From a virus: a DNA stretch of 46,406 nt. Under the pieces are notes generated by a model that saw nothing but the letters and a program-made list of their open reading frames with translations, did not search any database and had not been told where the DNA came from. Positions within the stretch are counted from its first letter, which is position 1. Every line of letters starts with the position of its first letter. Below, one piece after another: positions 71 through 34,160 of the stretch. The stretch covers positions 1 through 46,406 of IMG/VR virus record IMGVR_UViG_3300033233_000059, one strand, 5' to 3'. Position numbers and translations under genes: made by a program.

Positions 71-2008
71 TCATTCCGCTGCATCCGGTTTGTCTTTTCG
101 AGCGGCTTCGTTTTTCTCGTCGCGCTCACGCTTGTTGCGCGTTCGCTTGGTCCATCGGCCCTCCCATTCTGGTGTGATTTTATTGTCTTTTTCGTCGCTG
201 CGAGCGGCTCCCGGTGGTTCGTCGCCAGCGGGCCGCTCGCGGCGACCGAGGATGTTGATTCCGGCGTTCTTGTCTTGGTCGTGCGCGTGCCCATTCTTGC
301 ATGCGAGCACCACTTTGGTTGCAGCATCGCCGATGACGGGCTCCCCGCACTCGTGGCACAGTCTCGTGGTCCCCGCTGCCGGCACTTCCTCCACGCTCCC
401 GCCGCTTGACAGGAAGGCATTGCAGAGCGCGTCGCGCAAGATGCTTGTAGCTGCGCGGTAGCGCTGCGATTGGGCCGCATCGCTGTCGGCTGCCTCGTCT
501 ATGTCTGGACGTTTTGCCATCTTCGAAAGGTTGAATTTTTCCAGCACCAGGACTGAGTAGCGCTTTGCCATCTGTGCCGCGAAATTTCGGTACAGGTGTT
601 TTCGTCGTTCCAGCGCTTGATGGCGTTGATCTGTCTCCCATTGCCACAGGTGTCGGTCCTGTTTTTCCCACGCGCTCAACGCTGCGAAGGCATCGGTGTC
701 ACCGTCGATGCGTGCGTCGAGCCACCGCCAACGCAAGCGTCCTAGCCGAGCTGGAGCGCGCCATTGCACCAAGTATGCGAGCGCCTGAGCCTGCGACGGC
801 GGCGTTTCGCCTCGTTTGACCGTGAGAGCGCGCATCCATTCTGGCATCTCGGCTGTGCGCAACCACGCCACCAGCGCGTCGCGGGCAGCGTTGAAGTTGA
901 TGTCGCGTTGAGCACGCAGTTCCGATGCTTTTGTTAGCTGCTGCATTGTCCCGAAGGAAGTTCTCACGCTCCGGCGATGCTGGTTTGCAGGCCGCTCCGG
1001 TCGTTGCGTGACGGCAGCGTCGAGGCGCAGTTCGCCCTCGGCGCCGTCCTCGCCGCACCAGTAGCAAACGCGCAATTCGTCGCCGAACGCGCGCCAGCCA
1101 AGGTCAACGCCGACAGCAAGTCGGCTGCCGCTGTGCGGCGCTACCGGCAGCGTGTCGAGCGTGATTTCGCAAGTCCACCGTTCGCGATGGCCATCTCGGC
1201 GGCAGCTCACCGTCGCGACCTTGATTCGCGCTCCTTCTGGTAGCGGCCGGTGCATCACCATGGGCCATTCGGCCCAGATCGGATTGCGACCATCGCTCGA
1301 TACGCGCAGCATGAGGCGAGCGAACGCGCGCCGTCCGTTCTTGCTTGTCCCGTTGTTGAGAATGCGTAGCTGCGTATCTTCCCCGCCAAGTGCTTCGGCG
1401 ACGGTCATGCCGCCTTGGAGCTGCACGCTCACAGCGCCATCGCCGGTCCAGCGCTTGAAGTGCGGGTTCCGAGGTTCTGTCCCGTCGTACAATGGCATTT
1501 TGCGGCGCATGCCGTTGACGACCTCAAAGGTCGCGTCTTCGGCTGCCTTTTCGGACAGCAGATAGCTACCCCAATATGGTCCAAGTGTTTTACACGCGGC
1601 GCGCGCGGTTTTGACCTTCGCGTTCACTTCCTCGTAAATTGTGTTCGCATCGCTCGACGCCCGTACCAGCGCCCGGCCGAACGCCAGCGTCCGCAGCGCT
1701 TCGCGCCGCCGGATCTTCGCCGCGGCATGGATCTCCTTTGCTGCGTCAGACTCAGACCGTGAGCGCGTTTTAGCGCGCGCTGACTTGATGGCTTGTGTCG
1801 CCGCCTCGCATTCAGCGTCGGCGTACTGCGCTGCCCAAGTAAGCCACTGCAGGCCGCGATGCTGTTCCATCAACGCTCGCTCGGCGTCGCGCCGGTCGCG
1901 TTCGATCTTGATGAGTTCGTTTTGGTAGCGATGAGCGGCGCGCATCTGTTCACGCACCAGCACGTTGTTGTCGGTCGGTGGCAGAAGGCCGTACTGATAT
2001 ACTTTCAT
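71..2008 (-). CDS. cas12: Compact Cas12 (Cas12m-like) RuvC effector nuclease
   Basis: A 645-aa RNA-guided nuclease of the TnpB/Cas12 superfamily. Counting from the ATG at 2008, RuvC-I is GVDLGW (D302), RuvC-II is LVLEKF (E490), a zinc site is CHEC (551-554) with CKNGH (570-574), and RuvC-III is DQDKNAGIN (D579). It is much longer than TnpB (about 400 aa). The order VQLQ (about 195), LPEGARI (about 256), GWR after RuvC-I and a W/R-rich helix ending LYRNFA (about 476) resembles what I recall of type V-M Cas12m. Described Cas12m proteins bind DNA without cutting and have degenerate RuvC sites, whereas this triad is complete. A TTG at 2053 would add 15 residues; the ATG starts in MKVYQYGLLPP, like family members. 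A basic, lysine/arginine-rich tail follows RuvC-III. No cas1, cas2 or cas4 is nearby. Its start overlaps the upstream gene by 59 nt. Confidence 0.86.
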   Translation of the reverse strand: MKVYQYGLLPPTDNNVLVREQMRAAHRYQNELIKIERDRRDAERALMEQHRGLQWLTWAAQYADAECEAATQAIKSARAKTRSRSESDAAKEIHAAAKIRRREALRTLAFGRALVRASSDANTIYEEVNAKVKTARAACKTLGPYWGSYLLSEKAAEDATFEVVNGMRRKMPLYDGTEPRNPHFKRWTGDGAVSVQLQGGMTVAEALGGEDTQLRILNNGTSKNGRRAFARLMLRVSSDGRNPIWAEWPMVMHRPLPEGARIKVATVSCRRDGHRERWTCEITLDTLPVAPHSGSRLAVGVDLGWRAFGDELRVCYWCGEDGAEGELRLDAAVTQRPERPANQHRRSVRTSFGTMQQLTKASELRAQRDINFNAARDALVAWLRTAEMPEWMRALTVKRGETPPSQAQALAYLVQWRAPARLGRLRWRWLDARIDGDTDAFAALSAWEKQDRHLWQWETDQRHQALERRKHLYRNFAAQMAKRYSVLVLEKFNLSKMAKRPDIDEAADSDAAQSQRYRAATSILRDALCNAFLSSGGSVEEVPAAGTTRLCHECGEPVIGDAATKVVLACKNGHAHDQDKNAGINILGRRERPAGDEPPGAARSDEKDNKITPEWEGRWTKRTRNKRERDEKNEAARKDKPDAAE

Positions 2009-18793: not shown

Positions 18794-20229
18794 CCTCGGG
18801 CGACTACATCGAGCGCGCGGAGCTGACCGAGGCTGTGCGGCGAGCCGCCCAACGGCTTAACGAAACGGAAGAGGACGGCGGGGAGGATGCGCTGCGTTGG
18901 CTGTACGCCGAGCTGCGCCGCGAACCGGTGGCGGACGCGACGGAACTGGGCCGCGCGCAGAGACGGATTCTACAGGAGCCACACCGCAAGGACCACGCCT
19001 GCTCCCAGTGCGTGCCCGACGGTGAAATCGTGCAGCCTGGTTTTGTGTGCGTCTATCACGTCGCGCTAGCCGCTGCGGCCAAGTCGCCAGCCGACTGCCC
19101 CGTGGAGCCTGGTCACAGGTGGCTCGTGGCTGACGGTGGAACCGCAATGGAGTGCAAGCACTGCCACGCTCGCGTGCCCGTCAAGCGAACGCGCGTGACG
19201 TGCCTGGAGTGCAACGGGACCGGCGTCGTGTTCTCCGGGTACCAGGATGAGAGCGCTGCTGTCCCGGTGGCCGGACAAGCCGATACTACTGGATTGAACC
19301 CCGTGCCGGCCGCCGCGTCACGCGCTGATGACTGGCTGACGAACGGCCATCCTGGCGAGTGCGGCGACAAATTCGAGGGCTATTTGTGCCGGCTGGCGAA
19401 GGGTCACAAGGGGCGCCACTCGGATACGCTCGGCATGGCCGATTGGGATGCAGACCACGTCGCACAGGATCTAAATGGACCGCCTCCGATGCCGGAGCCG
19501 ACAGTGCCAAATGAGGCGATTCGGATGTTGCGCCACCGTAGCGCCTACTGGGAAGTTCGCGCTAGCAGGCTGGAACGCGAGCTGAATGAGCTGTCAACTG
19601 AAACCACGGTCCTCAGCACCGCAGCCGACTTGCAACGCCAAGAAATCGCGCAGGTAAGGACCGAATCCGCCGCGCGCGTGGCCCACCTTGAGCTGACCGA
19701 AAAGTCTGTTCGAATGACGCTAAGCACGGCTGGCCATTGTGGCGACGGCAACCTGCCAGCAATGGTGAAGCGGGCCCTCGAAGAAGCCAAGCAGGAAGGG
19801 CGCGACGAGATGGCCGAGGTGTCGCGCGCCATGACGGACGCCAGCGCTGCGCTCCCAGAAGACTCGGAAGGCACCATCGCCGAGCGCATCCAACGGTTGC
19901 GAGACGAGATTGAAATAACGGATTGGCTGCTCGCCGAGCGCAACCGCCTACTTGACCTGTTCGACTGCGAAGCGCATGGGCCCGGCTGCGTTCCTAACGC
20001 CATCGAAGAGGTGAAGCGCTTGCGCCATGCCGAGAAGAAAATCTGCGCTGCGCGTTCACACATGCTGAATCGGTCTTCGTACGAGTTCTTGCTGAACCTC
20101 GACTTGAAGTGGCTTCGAGAACAACCCGACTGCTTAGAGCGCAGCCACATCGAGGTCGTGCTGGCGGCCACGCCCGACCTTCTTTACGGGCCGACGAAGC
20201 CGAGTCATAAGCCGAGCGATGGCGGCTGA
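18790..20229 (+). CDS. Zinc-ribbon and coiled-coil protein
   Basis: A 479-aa protein from GTG 18790 (overlapping the previous stop). Cys pairs at C71/C74 with C87/H90, and CKHC (122-125) with CLEC (138-141, DnaJ-like GTG following) form two zinc sites. An ECGDKFEGYLCRLAKGHKGR segment near 190 is a further Cys/His site. From about 230 to 420 the protein is a long, charged, helical, coiled-coil region. It may be an architectural or adaptor protein beside the helicase encoded next; the two genes overlap by 11 nt. Not recognised as a named family. Confidence 0.75.
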   Translation: MTSGDYIERAELTEAVRRAAQRLNETEEDGGEDALRWLYAELRREPVADATELGRAQRRILQEPHRKDHACSQCVPDGEIVQPGFVCVYHVALAAAAKSPADCPVEPGHRWLVADGGTAMECKHCHARVPVKRTRVTCLECNGTGVVFSGYQDESAAVPVAGQADTTGLNPVPAAASRADDWLTNGHPGECGDKFEGYLCRLAKGHKGRHSDTLGMADWDADHVAQDLNGPPPMPEPTVPNEAIRMLRHRSAYWEVRASRLERELNELSTETTVLSTAADLQRQEIAQVRTESAARVAHLELTEKSVRMTLSTAGHCGDGNLPAMVKRALEEAKQEGRDEMAEVSRAMTDASAALPEDSEGTIAERIQRLRDEIEITDWLLAERNRLLDLFDCEAHGPGCVPNAIEEVKRLRHAEKKICAARSHMLNRSSYEFLLNLDLKWLREQPDCLERSHIEVVLAATPDLLYGPTKPSHKPSDGG

Positions 20230-21928
20230 GCAGGTCACAGTCACCGGCCGCATCGTCGCGCTAAAAGTCGACGACGGCGCGCGTTCGTTTGCTGTAACGC
20301 TAGGTCAACTGCCGAACTTTTTTTGGTTTCGGTCGACCGGCAAGCCTCCGCGCCTCGGCCAGAAGCTCACGGTCCACGGCGAACGCAAGAGCAGCACACC
20401 CGTGGGAAAGGGACTAGACAGCGGCACGGTCACCGAGCTTGAAGCTCAGTCCTTTGAGGTGCTGAACGAGCCCATCGCGCGATCCGTTCCGCCGGCTGCG
20501 CTCGCTCGCGTTTCAAACGTCATGTCACGGCGCCTGTACCGCTACCAGATCGAAGGCGCTGCATGGCTCGCCACGCGTGTGAGAGCTGGCGTAGGTGCCA
20601 TCCTGGCGGACGACATGGGCCTCGGCAAGACGATGCAGACCGTGGCCGCCTTGGCGGCGCTGAGACCGTTCCCGGCCGTCGTTGTGTGTCCTGCGAGCCT
20701 AAAGCTGCAGTGGGCGCGCGAGTTTGACTGGGCTCGGGAAGCGCCTCGCGTGAGCGTCATCAACGGCACGAAGGGGGCTCTACCAGCCGGCGCTGACGTC
20801 TACATTGTCAACTACGACATCCTCTTCGCCCGCGAGGCCGAGCTGACCCAGCTGAACCCGATCTTATACGTCCTCGACGAGGCCCAGGAGGTCAAAAACT
20901 CGGTCGCCTACGGCAAGCACCGCGCCGCGGTCATCACCCGCCTCGTGCGCAAGCGCATGACCGGCGCCGTGCTTCTGACCGGTACGCCGCTCATGAACCG
21001 TCCGAACGAGCTGTGGCGGCTGCTCCACCTCGCAGATCCAAAGCGCTGGCCGCGCCTGGCCGACTACGCCGACCGCTACCTGTCGGCCAAGAAGGGCGAG
21101 GAAGTCGGACGGGCCATCCGTACAATCGCCGGCAAGGTCGAGCGCCTTGACGAGCTGCACGCCGAGGTCGACCCAATGATGCTGCGCCGCCTGAAGGGCG
21201 ACGTGCTCAAGGACTTGCCGGCAAAGAGCCGGCGCACCCTGCTCGTGCGCCTCGACGACGCCTCGATGAAGCACTACCAGGCCGCCTACCGAGACGTCGT
21301 CGGCTGGCTGCGCTCCATCGGCAAGGAGCAGCGAGCCCAGAACGCTAAGCGCGCCGAGAGCCTGGCACGCCTCACGATGCTCCGACGCATCGCCGCCGTA
21401 GGCAAGCTACGCCTTGCCATTCCGCAGTACCTGTCGAGCTGGTTCAGCAGCCACACCCGCGAACCGCTGGTCATCTTCGGCTACCACAAGGACGTCATGC
21501 TGGGCCTGTGGCGCATCTGCCAGCGATTGCGCCTGCGGTTGTCCGGCATCGGTGGCGGCGAGACCGCCGAGAAGCGTCAGCGCCAGGTCGACCTGTTCCA
21601 GTCTGGCGGCGCTGACGTGTTCCTCGCTCCCATCGAATCGGCCGGGTTCGGCCTCAACCTGCAGCGCGCTAGCGACGCCCTCTTTGTCGAGCGTGTCTGG
21701 TCGCCGAGCGTCATGCTGCAATGCGAGGACCGCATTCACCGCATCGGCACGAAGAAGCCCGTAACAATCACCTACCTCGACGCCGCCGGCACGGTCGATG
21801 AACGCGTCGCGCTCATCCTCGAAGCGAAGCAGCGGCTCATCCGCGCCGTCGTAGACGACGACCACCAGCACGCCGAGAGCATGACCACCGTCGAGAGCGT
21901 TCTCGACGAGATGTTGAAGGGCGACTAG
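20219..21928 (+). CDS. SNF2-family DNA helicase/translocase
   Basis: A 569-aa SWI2/SNF2 ATPase. An N-terminal OB-like segment (VTVTGRIVALKVDDG to KLTVHGER) is followed by motif I DDMGLGKT (131-138), VLDEAQEVKN (motif II, DEAQ instead of DEAH), LLTGTPLMNRPNELW (III) and CEDRIHRIGTKK (VI). The family moves along duplex DNA to remodel protein-DNA or forked structures. Motif order and length fit a complete enzyme. A longer paralogue lies at 37291-39825. Convergent with the next gene, 6 bp away. Confidence 0.9.
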   Translation: MAAEQVTVTGRIVALKVDDGARSFAVTLGQLPNFFWFRSTGKPPRLGQKLTVHGERKSSTPVGKGLDSGTVTELEAQSFEVLNEPIARSVPPAALARVSNVMSRRLYRYQIEGAAWLATRVRAGVGAILADDMGLGKTMQTVAALAALRPFPAVVVCPASLKLQWAREFDWAREAPRVSVINGTKGALPAGADVYIVNYDILFAREAELTQLNPILYVLDEAQEVKNSVAYGKHRAAVITRLVRKRMTGAVLLTGTPLMNRPNELWRLLHLADPKRWPRLADYADRYLSAKKGEEVGRAIRTIAGKVERLDELHAEVDPMMLRRLKGDVLKDLPAKSRRTLLVRLDDASMKHYQAAYRDVVGWLRSIGKEQRAQNAKRAESLARLTMLRRIAAVGKLRLAIPQYLSSWFSSHTREPLVIFGYHKDVMLGLWRICQRLRLRLSGIGGGETAEKRQRQVDLFQSGGADVFLAPIESAGFGLNLQRASDALFVERVWSPSVMLQCEDRIHRIGTKKPVTITYLDAAGTVDERVALILEAKQRLIRAVVDDDHQHAESMTTVESVLDEMLKGD

Positions 21929-23831: not shown

Positions 23832-23893
23832 CGTTTGCCGCTCCTCGCCGTCGACCAATCCTGCTCATTTGCGCCGTGCGGGTCAAGGAAAAA

Positions 23894-23923
23894 GTTGACA
23901 CCAGGGAAACATCCGGGCATGGT
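23894..23923 (+). promoter_or_regulatory. Promoter with GTTGAC-N5-GGAAAC operator (site D)
   Basis: TTGACA (23895-23900), a 17-nt spacer and CATGGT (23918-23923) precede the XRE-type gene. GTTGAC-ACCAG-GGAAAC (23894-23910) is one base from the GGTAAC form. Position suggests that the repressor controls itself. Confidence 0.55.
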
Positions 23924-23958: not shown

Positions 23959-24192
23959 ATGGCCACAGCACGAGATAAAAACGGTAAAAAACAGGACGAT
24001 GGCTCCGGCGGCGCAGACCTGCTCCGCAAGGCCATCGACGGCAAGGACTGGACGCTGCACAAGGCCGCCGACGAGCTAGGCGTGTCCGTAGCGACCGTCA
24101 GCCGCTGGCTCGGCGGCAGCCGAGTCCCTGGCCGCGAGCACATGAAGAAGCTGCGCGACATGTTCGGCATCCCGCCGCAGATTTGGGTGTAG
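23959..24192 (+). CDS. XRE-type helix-turn-helix repressor
   Basis: A 77-aa protein with a polar, disordered head (about 18 residues) and a lambda-repressor-like DNA-binding domain at residues 20-77: LHKAADELGVSVATVSRWLG (33-52) is the helix-turn-helix. It has no dimerisation or effector domain. The ATG at 23959 has GGAG 8 nt upstream; TTG 23932 is less likely. It lies 35 nt after site D, so it is the best candidate to read the GTTGAC-N5-GKYAAC operators, though this is not proven. Confidence 0.85.
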   Translation: MATARDKNGKKQDDGSGGADLLRKAIDGKDWTLHKAADELGVSVATVSRWLGGSRVPGREHMKKLRDMFGIPPQIWV

Positions 24193-24942: not shown

Positions 24943-24953
24943 CGCTCGCTGAC

Positions 24954-24985
24954 TTCGCGAAGCCTTTGGGCTACGATTCGCGAAG
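24954..24985. repeat. Two TTCGCGAAG palindromic sites
   Basis: TTCGCGAAG at 24954-24962 and 24977-24985 (23-bp period) bracket the TTG start region of the recombinase gene. Each contains the palindrome TTCGCGAA. They could be recombinase or operator sites. Confidence 0.4.
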
Positions 24986-27900
24986 GGTGACAGAAACAGC
25001 GCTCGACATCACCAAGCCCGAGGCGCAGCTCACGCGCACCGGCCTGGAGCTGAAGCAGCTCTCTGAGCTGTGGAGCCGAAAACCTCGCGGTGACAAGTTC
25101 ACCCATGCGCTCTTGACCTTCCTCGGAAGCAAGAGAAACCGTGGCACGCGTCGGCTCTACGCCTTCGGCATCAACGAGTTCTTCAGCTGGTACCGCGTCC
25201 AGCGTGGCTACTTGCCGCTTCCGAGCGAAGTTCTTCGCGCCGATGCCTACGCGTTCGTTGAATATCTGTACACGCGCAACGTTGGTCTCGACGAGCAACG
25301 CCTTCAGCTCGACCCGAACAGGCAGCTCGACCTGAGCGTTTACCGCCTGCTGAAGACTTCTCCCGGCGTCCGAATCACGGCCATCCGCCAGCACCTGCTT
25401 CGTGACAGCCGATTCGTGGTCGATGTTAGCTTCACGACTCGCGGCATTCCGCAACGCGCTCGCGTCCTAGAAATCGAAGCATCCGAGCCTCGTGGTGATG
25501 ACCTCGACGCGTACATGGCGCAGCACAGCAGGCCGCCAAACAACGGACTCGACATCTATCTCGCTTGCCTGTGCCAGCACCGACTCCTGCGTCGCACGCC
25601 AACGCTTCAAGAAATCCGCCGCGGGCTAGTCGATGTCGGAGAAGACCGGCCCGCTCAGGCACAAATTGGCTACCGCGTCGACCCCGATGTCTTCCAGTAC
25701 TACATCAACACGTACACCGAGGCCCAGGGCGTTGAACGCGCCGGCACGGTGGTTTCGCGCTTGTCAGCGCTGTCGTCCTTCTGGACGTTTCTCGTCAGAC
25801 AAAGCGCCGAGAACGTCCCCGGCTTCGATCGGCTCTTGGAGCACAACATCTGGATCGAACCGACGCAGCAAGCCCGTAAGAAGGCCATCAACCGCGCGAA
25901 AATCCGGCGCGAGCAAAGCGTTCCAAACCGCGAGCTGTTTCTTCGCGTGCTGACGACGACGTTTTCGACGAGCCACGGAGAAAACGCGGCTGCTGCAGCT
26001 GCTGCTGCGCTCGAAGGCGCAAACGTTGACTCGATGGCCACGTCGTCGACACCAATTTTCGACGTCCGCGACCGTGCCCTCTTGCTGTTCGTCTACTGGA
26101 CCGGCGTGCGTGCCGATGAGCTTTCATCAGTGCGACGCTCGGAACTCGACCATGACACCGGGCTCATCACGATCATAGGAAAAGGCGACGAGACGCGGAT
26201 CTTTACGGTGCCACAGCCCGCTCTCGCAGCCATCCGCTCGTTGCAAAAACGACTCGACGAAATCGCGGATAAGTCACCGGCGACAGCTCTTGTCCATCTC
26301 GTCGTCCTACCATCGTCACCGCTCATCCCACCGCTGCGCCGGTGGGGCCGAGCTAGTACCGAGGCTCAGACAGCAGAAGAATTGTCAGGCATCACCACCT
26401 CGACGTTTGCTCACATTCTTCACCAGCGCGCAGAATTGGCCGCAATCGGCAAGGACACCGACGACTGGTACAGGATCCACCCTCACGGGCTGCGCCACCT
26501 TGCAGCACTCGAAGCAAACCGCCGCGGCGTAGATGTGGCGACAATTCAGGCAACGCTCGGGCACGGAAGCCTCGCCACGACCGGCATCTATCTCGAAGTG
26601 CGAGATCCGCGCGAGCGCTCGCTGATGCCGAAGCGTCCCGCTGCTGCACCGATGCCGCCGGCAGTCACGTTCGATGCGCAAGTCGAGCGACCGCGACCAG
26701 TAGAAGCGCCACCAGAAGCACCGCCCGAGTTCGAGCGCATCACCGAGACCATCTCGGAGCGCATCGCGCTCACCGACGAAGCCAAAACACTCGCCAAAGA
26801 GAGCGACGCTGTCGCCTACCTGCTCGACGTGTACAAGAGCAACTGGGGCGAAGCCGGCGACAAGGCCCGCGGCGTCAAGTCCGAGCGGACGCACATGCTC
26901 GCGCAGGCCAAGGGCGTAGGCGGCATCCTGTCCCATGCCTACGTCGGCAAGTCGTCCGGCCTTTGCTGGTGGGCTGGTGCCACCGGCGGCATGGCCGACA
27001 CGAGCTACTCGTACGTGCCGAACATGCGCTTCGCCTCGATGCCGGTCATGAGCCCAGCCCAGTTCCTCGGCGCACCGGGCTCGGAAGTCTGCTCGCAGCG
27101 CATCTGCCAGGCACTGTCAGAGCTGTACGAGAAGTGGCTCGCCGACGAGAGTCGCGGGCCGACCGCAGCGAGTGCGCTAGTGCGCTGGATCTACGTCGCC
27201 TCGCGCGTCACCGCAGAGACCGACGAAGCCATCCGCGCGCGCCACGGCACCTGGGTAACGTTCGAAGATTCGCTCGACGCCACGAAGGCCAAAGGCCTGC
27301 CACAAACGCTGCGCGAGCACCTCGACGACGCCATCGTCGCCTGGTTCGAAACCACGGCCTGGCAGTACCGCCCGACCGAGTCGAGCATGCTCACGCCGGA
27401 GGGCGACGAGTGGGAGCCGCCAAGCTGGTACGCCGAAGAAGATCCATTGCAGTCGCTGCCCGAAGCCGATCGCCTTGAGCTTCTTGACTGGCTCAATGTG
27501 ATGGTCGGCCGTCCTCCTGTCGATGCAACGCCGCGCTATGCCGGCAAGAGCCGCTCAGACATCGGCAAGGTACTCGCGAGCCTGTGCAGCTACGAGCAGC
27601 TCGCGACCGACAAAGAGCTGAGGCAAGACGTTGGACCTGCCACCTTCCGGCAGTACCTCGCGGCGGCCGACGCCGACATCCGTAAGCAGGTGGCCAAGCT
27701 CACCGACGGGCGCATGAAAGACTACGCCTACGGCGAGTCGAAGACGGCGCGGCGCCTCGAAAAGACCCGCTCGGAGGTCGAGACGTCAATCGCCAAACGC
27801 AAGGCTGAAGCGGAAGGCAAACCGCCCGAGCAGCTGGAAGAAGAGCTAAAGGACATTCGAGCGAGCTACGACAAGCGCCTGGCGCCGCACTTCATGGAAG

Positions 27901-28553
27901 TCCTGGCGAGCCTCGTCAGCGACGAGGCTGTCAAGGACGACGCCGTGCTCAACCTCTACGGCCTCTGCACCGCCGGTGTGCCGCTTGCGAGGGGCGAGAG
28001 TTCGCAGCTCAGCCGCTACAAGTCGCTCTTCCGCCAGGCGGGAGGCACCATCAAGCACGAGCCCGAGTTCAAGCGCGAGTTCGCCAAGGAAACCGGCCAG
28101 CACTCCGAGTGCGTGGCGCGCCGCCTGGCCCGCCACATCTGGGAAGATGGCCGGCTCGGCGCCTGGTACAAGCGCGGCAACTGGACCGACCCGTACCTGT
28201 TCGCCAAGACGGCCTACCGCGTGCCGTGCAACGCGGCCCAGGAGCAAGAGCTGCGTGCCATGGTCGGCGCGGGCGCCTTGCCCGTTCGCGACGAGTGGCA
28301 AAAAAGCGAGCGCAGCATCCAAGCCTCGCTCGAAGGCGAACGGCCGATGTCGGAAATCGAAGAAGCCCGCCTCGAAGAAGAACACCGCGGCCTCGGCCAG
28401 GAGGACGTCGCGCGCATCGAGCACCGTCTTGCGCGCGCCGCCGAGAAACGCGCTCGCGAGAACATTTCTCTTTCCAAGCGCGAGCAAGCTCTGCGAAGGT
28501 TCGTCCCGAACCCCATCGACTTTCTTCCCGTTCTGTACGGAATCTCCCAGTGA
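24966..28553 (+). CDS. Giant tyrosine recombinase with 630-aa C-terminal extension
   Basis: A 1195-aa protein. Residues 45-115 and 235-300 look like helical core-binding domains. The catalytic domain (about 360-545) has TGVRADELSSVR (R382), GKGDETR (K406), HPHGLRH (H507, R510), LGHGSLATTG (H533) and nucleophile Y542, the complete R-K-H-R-H-Y set. After a Pro-rich linker (555-590), about 600 residues of unknown helical sequence follow with TrpTrp, Cys and charged coiled-coil stretches. Integrases are usually 300-450 aa. TTG 24966 is used; GTG 24987 is an alternative. It integrates or resolves DNA; the extension could bind DNA, tether partners or license activity. No att site is evident. Confidence 0.85.
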   Translation: MGYDSRRVTETALDITKPEAQLTRTGLELKQLSELWSRKPRGDKFTHALLTFLGSKRNRGTRRLYAFGINEFFSWYRVQRGYLPLPSEVLRADAYAFVEYLYTRNVGLDEQRLQLDPNRQLDLSVYRLLKTSPGVRITAIRQHLLRDSRFVVDVSFTTRGIPQRARVLEIEASEPRGDDLDAYMAQHSRPPNNGLDIYLACLCQHRLLRRTPTLQEIRRGLVDVGEDRPAQAQIGYRVDPDVFQYYINTYTEAQGVERAGTVVSRLSALSSFWTFLVRQSAENVPGFDRLLEHNIWIEPTQQARKKAINRAKIRREQSVPNRELFLRVLTTTFSTSHGENAAAAAAAALEGANVDSMATSSTPIFDVRDRALLLFVYWTGVRADELSSVRRSELDHDTGLITIIGKGDETRIFTVPQPALAAIRSLQKRLDEIADKSPATALVHLVVLPSSPLIPPLRRWGRASTEAQTAEELSGITTSTFAHILHQRAELAAIGKDTDDWYRIHPHGLRHLAALEANRRGVDVATIQATLGHGSLATTGIYLEVRDPRERSLMPKRPAAAPMPPAVTFDAQVERPRPVEAPPEAPPEFERITETISERIALTDEAKTLAKESDAVAYLLDVYKSNWGEAGDKARGVKSERTHMLAQAKGVGGILSHAYVGKSSGLCWWAGATGGMADTSYSYVPNMRFASMPVMSPAQFLGAPGSEVCSQRICQALSELYEKWLADESRGPTAASALVRWIYVASRVTAETDEAIRARHGTWVTFEDSLDATKAKGLPQTLREHLDDAIVAWFETTAWQYRPTESSMLTPEGDEWEPPSWYAEEDPLQSLPEADRLELLDWLNVMVGRPPVDATPRYAGKSRSDIGKVLASLCSYEQLATDKELRQDVGPATFRQYLAAADADIRKQVAKLTDGRMKDYAYGESKTARRLEKTRSEVETSIAKRKAEAEGKPPEQLEEELKDIRASYDKRLAPHFMEVLASLVSDEAVKDDAVLNLYGLCTAGVPLARGESSQLSRYKSLFRQAGGTIKHEPEFKREFAKETGQHSECVARRLARHIWEDGRLGAWYKRGNWTDPYLFAKTAYRVPCNAAQEQELRAMVGAGALPVRDEWQKSERSIQASLEGERPMSEIEEARLEEEHRGLGQEDVARIEHRLARAAEKRARENISLSKREQALRRFVPNPIDFLPVLYGISQ

Positions 28554-28642
28554 CCATCGGCATCATCGTTTTTGGCGTCTCGTTTTGGTCCCTCTGCTCG
28601 TCGCTTCGCGACCTCGCGAACAGCGAAAGTGAGGACGCTTGA
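28550..28642 (+). CDS. Small membrane peptide, 30 aa
   Basis: GTG 28550 overlaps the recombinase stop (GTGA) and the stop overlaps the next gene's TTG. The product is one hydrophobic helix (IGIIVFGVSFWSLCSSL) and a short acidic tail. The overlaps at both ends support translation; the small size does not. It may anchor or regulate its neighbours. Confidence 0.4.
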   Translation: MTIGIIVFGVSFWSLCSSLRDLANSESEDA

Positions 28643-28920
28643 TCACGGCTGCGCAAAAACGCGTCCTCGACTGCATCCGCGACCACATTGCACGCCACGG
28701 CTTTCCGCCGACGTTACGGGAGATCGGTAACGAGCTTGGCATCAGGTCAACTAACGGCGTTGCCGACCACATCTACCGGCTCGAACGCGAGGGCTACATC
28801 CGAAGCGATCACATGAAATCGCGTGGCCTTATCCTCGTCGACAAGCAAGACGGCTGGCCGATGATCGTCAAGACCGGCAGCGGGGTCGAGCTGCACAGGA
28901 TCCGAATCAAGGCCGCGTGA
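28639..28920 (+). CDS. LexA-type winged-helix DNA-binding protein without protease domain
   Basis: A 93-aa protein matching the N-terminal DNA-binding domain of LexA: TAAQKRVLDCIRDHIARHG, PPTLREIGNELGI (recognition helix region) and HIYRLEREGYI. The S24 self-cleaving domain is absent, so it cannot be cleaved on SOS induction. The start is TTG 28639. It may bind LexA-like sites or its own; it follows a recombinase and may control integration or induction. Confidence 0.85.
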   Translation: MITAAQKRVLDCIRDHIARHGFPPTLREIGNELGIRSTNGVADHIYRLEREGYIRSDHMKSRGLILVDKQDGWPMIVKTGSGVELHRIRIKAA

Positions 28921-28923
28921 GCC

Positions 28924-29334
28924 ATGGGTCACCTGCGGGCGCTTCTGTTCGACTCCACGGGTAAGCAGCTGCCGCCATTGCTGCGCGGCCCGAAGGTGTC
29001 GACGGCGCTGTTGCCCGTAATGAAGCTCGCCGGCATGACAGCCTACGCGGGGACGCTCGTCGATGATGACCCAGCGCGCCGGGACGCCGTCATCGCGGCT
29101 CTCACGAAGGCGCAGCACGCTAGACCCGTTAAGGTCTACGGCGTCGCACTCGTGTCCTGCTCGGAGCGCGGCTACATCGCGAGCTTCGCCGTCCTTGCGC
29201 CAAGCGGAAAGACCATCTGGTGCGGCGAAGCATGCTGCCCAAGGCTCGCTGATGTTGAGGACCACGTCGAAGCAGGCGTCAGACGCGTTCGCCTTGATAT
29301 GCCTGATGCCGCTGTACACCCCGTTGCGCTATAA
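28924..29334 (+). CDS. Hypothetical protein
   Basis: A 136-aa protein starting MGHLRALLFDSTGKQL, 3 nt after the LexA-type gene. It is an alpha/beta domain with VYGVALVSCSERGYIASFAV and CGEACC, and ends AVHPVAL. The stop lies within the A-run of the minus-strand terminator. Function unknown. Confidence 0.7.
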   Translation: MGHLRALLFDSTGKQLPPLLRGPKVSTALLPVMKLAGMTAYAGTLVDDDPARRDAVIAALTKAQHARPVKVYGVALVSCSERGYIASFAVLAPSGKTIWCGEACCPRLADVEDHVEAGVRRVRLDMPDAAVHPVAL

Positions 29335-32693: not shown

Positions 32694-34160
32694 CTAACCT
32701 GCGGCCACAAGCGACAGAAATAGATCCCAAGGCCAGCGCTTGTCACCCTGCAGGCCTGGGTCTTGGTGATCGGACTTCTTGAACGCCGCCGTCGCTGCTG
32801 CGTGACTTGTGATGCCGCGCTGCCCTGCGAGCAACCCATCAGCATCGACGCGCACGATCGGCACGTTCCAGCGCTTGCAGATAGCCGCCACGAGCTTGGC
32901 GCTGCGCTCCAGCACGAGTCGTCCCGCTCGTGCGTCGGAGCCAACGCGCTCCCATTCCGTCCGCGCAGCCCAGCCGACCTGCTCGATTTGGATACCGGTG
33001 CGGTTCGCCCCAGGGGCGGCCCATGCAACATCCTGCTCACGAACGCACTGGAAAGCCGCTTCGGGCCCGACCACATAATGGCTGCTCGCCTGCGGCGCGT
33101 TGGGCCCGGCGAAGTACATGGCAACGCCGTGAGCTTGGCCAACGATGGTCGACATCTTGACCGGTACGGGCTCCGTTGAATGCAACACGACCCAGTCGAT
33201 GCGCGTGCGATTGGCCGGCGTGTAGTTCTTCGCCTGGATGAACTCGATGTCCGACACGCCATGACCGACCGGTGCCGGCACGCTCGGGCGCGCAGCGCGT
33301 TCGTAGGCCAAGCTCGCGGCCTCGGTGCGTCCGCCGTGGATGCCGTCTGCCTTGCCAGGCGCGTAGCCGTGCGCGAGCAGCCAAAGCTGCCACGCGGTCA
33401 CTGAGCCCGGCGGTGGCTGGTCGGCGTCGCCAAGACGTGTGCGCGCTGGCTGCGTGTCTGGGCTTGACGGCGGAGCGCTGGGCGCCGATGGAACAGGCTC
33501 CGGCGGACCTGCCTGCGGCTCGGGCTCAGGCTTCGAGCTGGGCGGCGGGTTGTCAGCCGGCGCGGGACCGCCACGCTCCAGCATGGTCAAGGTGCCATAG
33601 TCGAACATGTCCTCGCCATGGCGCCCTTGGTCGTGGTCCTCCTCCTGCACGAAGCCGGGACCATGACGTCCTGGGCTGAACCGCTCCAGATGCTGCGTCC
33701 ACCAGCCCATCAGGTACGCCCTGCCGGCGGGAGCGCCTGAGTGCCACCACTTGCCGGCGCCGCATACCACCTGCTTGCCGTCGTGGTTCATCCCGTCCCA
33801 GTGCAACTCGCGCAGGCCAGGCGTGCTGGTGACGTGGTTGTGGTTCCAGAATCGGTCGGCGTGGTCGAGCGACGCAGAAAGCTCCGTCGAGTCCGGGTTG
33901 ATCGTGACGGGCTCGACGTGCAAGCCGACGTCGCGAATTTCGCGAATTGTCCGCGGGCTGACGAGGCGCGCGCCATTCGCTGCAGCGAAAGCCTTCGCAT
34001 CCTTGTAAGAAAGGCATGCGAACAGGTAGTCGCTGCCATCGGGCAGACGCTTCGTCTTGTCGACGAGCGAGATTTTCGTAACCTCGACGCCGCTCGGCAG
34101 CGTGGTCCAACCGGACGCGTGGATGGCAGCTGCGGCGGGCAGGGTTCGATGGGTTGTCAT
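32694..34160 (-). CDS. N-acetylmuramoyl-L-alanine amidase endolysin
   Basis: A 488-aa protein. Residues 320-470 form an Amidase_2 (T7-lysozyme-like) domain: IDWVVLHSTE (H327), SSHYVVGPEAAFQ (H361), and SHAAATAAFKKSDHQDPG with H453 and D467 as the remaining zinc ligands. Ahead of it is a peptidoglycan-binding-like segment (252-295) after a Pro-rich linker (200-250). The N-terminal 190 residues are a separate domain (DHADRFWNHNHVTSTP, WDGMNHDGKQVVC) perhaps for substrate recognition. No signal peptide or export motif is clear. It cuts the amide bond of peptidoglycan at lysis. A TATAAA 8 nt before the ATG hints at a leaderless message. Confidence 0.9.
   Translation of the reverse strand: MTTHRTLPAAAAIHASGWTTLPSGVEVTKISLVDKTKRLPDGSDYLFACLSYKDAKAFAAANGARLVSPRTIREIRDVGLHVEPVTINPDSTELSASLDHADRFWNHNHVTSTPGLRELHWDGMNHDGKQVVCGAGKWWHSGAPAGRAYLMGWWTQHLERFSPGRHGPGFVQEEDHDQGRHGEDMFDYGTLTMLERGGPAPADNPPPSSKPEPEPQAGPPEPVPSAPSAPPSSPDTQPARTRLGDADQPPPGSVTAWQLWLLAHGYAPGKADGIHGGRTEAASLAYERAARPSVPAPVGHGVSDIEFIQAKNYTPANRTRIDWVVLHSTEPVPVKMSTIVGQAHGVAMYFAGPNAPQASSHYVVGPEAAFQCVREQDVAWAAPGANRTGIQIEQVGWAARTEWERVGSDARAGRLVLERSAKLVAAICKRWNVPIVRVDADGLLAGQRGITSHAAATAAFKKSDHQDPGLQGDKRWPWDLFLSLVAAG

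Follow-up and report, generated by a model that had tools for sequence, protein, structure and literature searches.

A conserved C-terminal extension on a viral tyrosine recombinase matches no searched family and may help to maintain circular viral genomes

Tyrosine recombinases are usually 300–450 residues long. The nearest described relatives of the protein discussed here are the Xer-type recombinases (XerD, archaeal XerA, and XerH) and the integron integrases, which share its catalytic domain, its R-K-H-R-H-Y set of residues, and a core-binding-like N-terminus. Unlike them, our protein is viral, extends about 640 residues beyond its catalytic domain, and has an insert in the core-binding region. 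Phage integrases (PHROG families phrog_1 and phrog_216) also match the catalytic domain (E = 1.5e-20), but the extension distinguishes our protein from them, and no INPHARED protein carries that extension. As a working model we use P1 Cre and the plasmid resolvases: an enzyme of this kind would act inside a circular genome, resolving dimers. However, the domain architecture is different, and a lox-like site was not found here. Protelomerases and the Crypton and Starship enzymes are tyrosine recombinases with added domains. In the family described here, no extra domain has a Pfam match in any member. A literature search found nothing on comparable extended tyrosine recombinases.

The gene lies in a 46,406-bp IMG/VR virus record without end repeats, which was analyzed at its full length and which we will term the window. 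The reading frame is open throughout 24966–28553, and the initial annotation had begun the protein at the TTG at 24966. This is 21 bases too early. The start of a homologue from a related virus (locus L003, MTLDTIDDV...) aligns with a GTG at 24987 (VTETALDI...), so we place the gene at 24987–28553 on the + strand, encoding 1188 amino acids. The catalytic domain is followed by a linker, then by a core of about 500 residues that is conserved in the family, and finally by a tail whose C-terminal peptide is also conserved. The features of the locus, in window coordinates, are:

20219..21928, + strand: SNF2 helicase, a neighbor common to related viruses
23959..24192, + strand: XRE/Cro-type helix-turn-helix gene (PF01381, 6.4e-9); homologues lie close to the recombinase in 3 other loci
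24949..24985, + strand: promoter-like CTGACT-17-TACGAT with two TTCGCGAA palindromes, a probable operator, from reading of the sequence; the gene start appears leaderless
24987..28553, + strand: tyrosine recombinase with C-terminal extension; start from homologues, 11-member family alignment
25098..25856, + strand: N-terminal core-binding (SAM-like) region, residues 38–290, from the alignment and weak PF13495 and PF02899 matches (each in 3 of 11 members)
26040..26621, + strand: catalytic tyrosine recombinase domain, residues 352–545, from PF00589, invariant residues, and XerA/XerD/XerH/IntI profile matches
26622..26801, + strand: variable Pro/Ala/acidic linker, residues 546–605 (67–183 amino acids across the family)
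26802..28301, + strand: extension core, approximately residues 606–1105, mostly helical, with no matching family or fold
28056..28229, + strand: putative metal site H1024, H1039, C1042, and C1081 (HSECVARR...PC), from invariance; HSECVARR itself at 28101–28124
28494..28550, + strand: C-terminal peptide RRFVPNPIDFLPVLYGISQ, with a family motif around [N/T/S/H]-P-hydrophobic-x-[L/M]
28639..28920, + strand: 93-residue protein consisting of a LexA DNA-binding domain only (PF01726, 3.7e-22), directly downstream of the recombinase
28924..29334, + strand: small partner gene, found after the recombinase gene and on the same strand at 6 of the 11 loci

In the 11-member alignment, the core-binding region appears to be interrupted by an insert, which is long in the window, L003, and L007 and short in L006 and L020.

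The catalytic half is of a known kind. PF00589 matches residues 352–540 (in the 1188-residue numbering) with E = 2.6e-20 and a score of 73.3 bits, against a gathering score of 27.1, and it matches all 11 family members at E up to 0.1. R375, K399, H500, R503, H526, and Y535 are invariant among the members whose sequences extend over those positions. The catalytic set had been described as complete by residue 542, and this holds: all six residues are there, the last being Y535 in the corrected numbering. Judging by its profile matches and its catalytic residues, the protein is a tyrosine recombinase, with strand exchange as a predicted activity. The best matches among PDB sequences are XerA (5hxy), XerD, and XerH. 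It is not classified as an equivalog of XerA, XerC, or XerD, as it scores far below the NCBIfam cutoffs (87.1 bits vs. 220 for XerA, 82.5 vs. 335 for XerC, and 71.1 vs. 330 for XerD).

Direct searches with the protein returned only ordinary recombinase domains, and the extension as the sole query had no matches, whether among viral contigs, genomes, phage records, or plasmid records. The homologue in L003 (1367 amino acids) was found through a neighboring gene; it is 56% identical to the window protein in the recombinase and 39% in the extension. Alignment-based scans added L006 and L007. We then scanned all viral contigs with a degenerate DNA pattern that encodes the invariant peptide HSECVARRxAR. 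Twelve of the 13 stretches that matched the pattern are recombinase-extension fusions (including 3 contigs of one virus), and the thirteenth did not match the family profile. The family thus comprises 11 distinct IMG/VR viruses, counting the window. The initial annotation had suggested looking for homologues in which the extension is a separate gene, but the scan found no stand-alone extension among its 13 stretches, and all 11 members are fused.

Between pairs of members, identity is 31–88% for the recombinase and 29–80% for the extension. The distance matrices of the two halves are strongly correlated (Mantel r = 0.91; none of 10,000 permutations was as high). The two halves are inherited together in a group of large uncultivated viruses. 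Between L006 and L020, dN is 0.14 in each half while dS is above 1.6 (near or beyond saturation), and therefore both halves are under purifying selection. These data bear on the concern, raised from the sequence of the window, that the long protein is a missed frameshift or an assembly fusion. An artifact of frameshift, chimeric assembly, or annotation is now exceedingly improbable, given 11 distinct fused members, a virus whose three contigs all encode the same protein, and the low dN/dS in both halves. In its favor is a single relative, with an in-frame TAG near the N-terminus (L025/G010; L025:7672 region, and G010 C1:34472–38290 on the − strand). This TAG could be a sequencing error, decay, or a stop codon that is read through.

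The extension itself belongs to no family that we searched. None of the 11 members has a Pfam match there (E up to 0.1), the extension of the window protein matches nothing in NCBIfam or PHROGs, and when a profile was searched against PDB sequences, all significant matches were to the recombinase domain and none to the extension. An AlphaFold model of residues 606–1105 built with 11 sequences is mostly helical (pLDDT 76.8, pTM 0.65); with 4 sequences only, the model was uninformative (pLDDT 50). Foldseek found nothing significant for the 11-sequence model (best E = 1.3 in PDB and 0.36 in BFVD), and the TM-scores were all below 0.3 among the matches listed. Structure prediction and HMM searches had been proposed for this region at the outset. 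Their outcome, a helical model and no family match, agrees with the initial reading that the extension has no known domain, and it removes the concern that the extension is a common integrase arm.

Within the extension, nearly all members have an acidic first block, and most have a basic block around HSECVARR. H1024, H1039, C1042, and C1081 are the only His or Cys residues of their block that are identical in all 11 members, which suggests a metal site. A deaminase was considered for the HSE...PC arrangement and rejected because the second cysteine of a PCxxC motif is missing and because the model is helical. A similar short version of the C-terminal peptide ends all 11 members, and its motif is rare among 586 predicted proteins of the member viruses.

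The LexA-domain protein is also present in L003. The start of the small partner gene overlaps the stop of the recombinase gene in L007 and L030, and the partner has no match in a Pfam search. The L003 recombinase has an extra segment at its C-terminus (L003:5545–6021, − strand) that resembles residues 228–287 of the amidase endolysin of the window (32694–34160, − strand; E = 0.004), possibly with a peptidoglycan-binding-like fold. Near the left end of the window (71–2008, − strand) is a gene for a TnpB-like RNA-guided nuclease (NF040570, 1.6e-10; PF07282).

The TTCGCGAAG sites at the start of the gene had been proposed as the substrate of the enzyme. We rejected this because they are not conserved and because, with the corrected start, they precede the gene and overlap its promoter. 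The window contains 4 copies of TTCGCGAA (1.66 are expected, and 9 of 100 shuffles reach 4). Two of them, at 24954 and 24977, form a pair 23 bp apart, upstream of the corrected start and overlapping the promoter; there is no such pair upstream of the homologues. Several members appear, by eye, to have a leaderless start with a −10-like element 6–9 bases upstream. L006 and L020 have another palindrome, GATTCTACNGTAGAATC, over the promoter, and the remaining members have none there. In the genome that we term G007 (described below), GATTCTACNGTAGAATC is a 17-bp palindrome that abuts the recombinase gene, overlaps its promoter, and occurs once genome-wide. The simplest reading of the TTCGCGAAG sites and the promoter palindromes is that they would be repressor operators rather than a substrate. 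The palindromes are no evidence for a recombination substrate, although a unique site beside the gene might still be one.

No inverted repeat that adjoins the recombinase gene is conserved across the members, and a search for lox-like repeats near the gene gave just one, in G007, which is not conserved. Another candidate, GTCAA-N8-TTGAC, occurs at the same place between divergent genes in the window (23882–23899) and in L003 (9921–9938), with one copy in each (0.02 are expected in the window). We rejected it as an att site since it is more simply, and probably, two divergent −35 boxes.

G007 (IMGVR_UViG_3300018080_000003) is 143,727 bp long, and its ends overlap by 123 bp. The overlap is bridged by contigs from other metagenomes at 99.98–100% identity (G005 and G009, records 3300028840_003688 and 3300017963_000289; the loci of G007 are L049–L055 and L045). 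This makes G007 a complete genome of 143,604 bp, either circular or circularly permuted. There is no host flank on any of these contigs, which come from three metagenomes. The detrended cumulative GC skew of G007 rises from a minimum at 22.5 kb to a maximum at 94 kb, positions separated by half the circle, and a primase gene (22.6–26.0 kb) lies near the minimum. Such a skew may reflect two-armed replication of a circle, and gene orientation may contribute to it.

Our best explanation, which we hold tentatively, is that the protein is a recombinase for the maintenance of a circular viral genome, in resolution or segregation, with the extension as a tether or regulator. In dimers or concatemers, the catalytic half would recombine two copies of a single site and thereby yield monomers; alternatively, it might recircularize the viral genome. 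The extension, probably stabilized by metal, would serve as a tether or gate for the enzyme. It would bind a partner, which might be DNA, the viral replication machinery, or the small protein encoded downstream, and the contact would be made via the C-terminal peptide and the flexible linker. A palindromic operator that overlies the leaderless promoter would limit expression, plausibly by way of the neighboring XRE and LexA-like DNA-binding proteins. We favor a role in circular maintenance because G007 is circular or circularly permuted, with no host flank and a two-arm skew; because the architecture and the catalytic residues are kept, along with co-inheritance and purifying selection; and because homologues of the extension are absent from phage and plasmid records and from two limited pattern scans of bacterial genomes. 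The unmatched fold, the adjacent regulatory genes, and the unique palindrome next to the gene in G007 also led us to this explanation, and the evidence is compatible with a control or tether role for the extension. Against it, the recombination site was not found, circularity was seen in the relative G007 only, and the XRE and LexA-like neighbors would equally fit a lysogeny switch.

This last point leads to the main rival, which we consider possible and somewhat less probable: a lysogenic integrase, whose extension would pick the target, govern direction, or substitute for an N-terminal arm-binding domain in the binding of arm sites. The complete catalytic set, the nearby XRE and LexA-like repressor genes, and the integrase annotation of the PHROG matches are all as an integrase would have them. 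However, we found no integrated copies or att sites, and no related copy, in 84,980 bacterial and archaeal genomes with two narrow peptide-pattern scans (which have limited sensitivity and would miss many members), nor any related copy in the phage and plasmid records, and the three contigs of one virus form a closed sequence that includes no host DNA.

It is unlikely that the extension has an activity of its own, as an enzyme or as a component of the virion or cell envelope, with the recombinase merely its fusion partner. The helical fold with its invariant His/Cys set would suit such an activity, as would the resemblance of the extra segment in L003 to the peptidoglycan-binding region of an endolysin, but that segment is limited to one member and has no Pfam match. 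Also, the HSECVARR pattern scan never found the extension without a recombinase. Separate translation from an internal start was rejected, as no conserved ribosome-binding site with an internal start precedes the extension. More improbable still is a DNA-inversion enzyme that switches tail-fiber-like genes. In G007 two fiber-like genes that flank the recombinase do carry inverted repeats (75–83% identity; L045:7255–10152 and L054:12459–15782), but these are too diverged and too diffuse to make up a defined crossover site, and three contigs from three metagenomes are all collinear in a single orientation.

Returning to the recombinase for circular maintenance, the full proposal joins several parts: that the extension has a new fold and represents a novel, metal-stabilized kind of control or tether module for tyrosine recombinases, that it docks by its C-terminal peptide, and that it couples site-specific recombination to the maintenance of circular genomes in large viruses of an undescribed lineage, the main virion genes of which lack recognizable relatives. 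As a whole we regard this as rather doubtful. The extension probably has an important role that is as yet undescribed, given the same fusion in at least 11 distinct viral versions. A conserved module of about 500 residues on an intact recombinase gives a concrete lead toward a new form of control over site-specific recombination, and HSECVARR offers a sharp sequence tag for poorly known large viruses, one of which has a complete 143.6-kb genome.

We scanned 88 of the larger proteins of G007 against protein families. Helicases, a primase, and tail and baseplate annotations are among the families listed, and terminase and portal are not (for a scan of 78 proteins, 25 of the 56 families are listed). 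A candidate for the major virion protein of the group is a strongly conserved protein of 250–265 amino acids (TNVRERVHQPFRD...FDGLFSRDVQ; L012:15484–16278, L050:15513–16268, and L063:14808–15575), which is 62–71% identical among these loci, follows a basic repeat protein of 750–850 amino acids, and has no match in a PHROG search. A double-jelly-roll capsid was rejected for this virion-like protein of about 250 residues, as it gave only weak matches to antibody chains. In G007, a family of repeats of about 70 bp lies near the GC-skew maximum (L053:6126–9596, 86.1–89.6 kb of the genome); it includes one perfect inverted pair, and the repeats precede small genes whose products start with MPREEDNNM. 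Finally, the 182-kb contig G011 (3300037483_001670; L060 and L061) has 38 predicted tRNA genes in an array, covering most amino acids.
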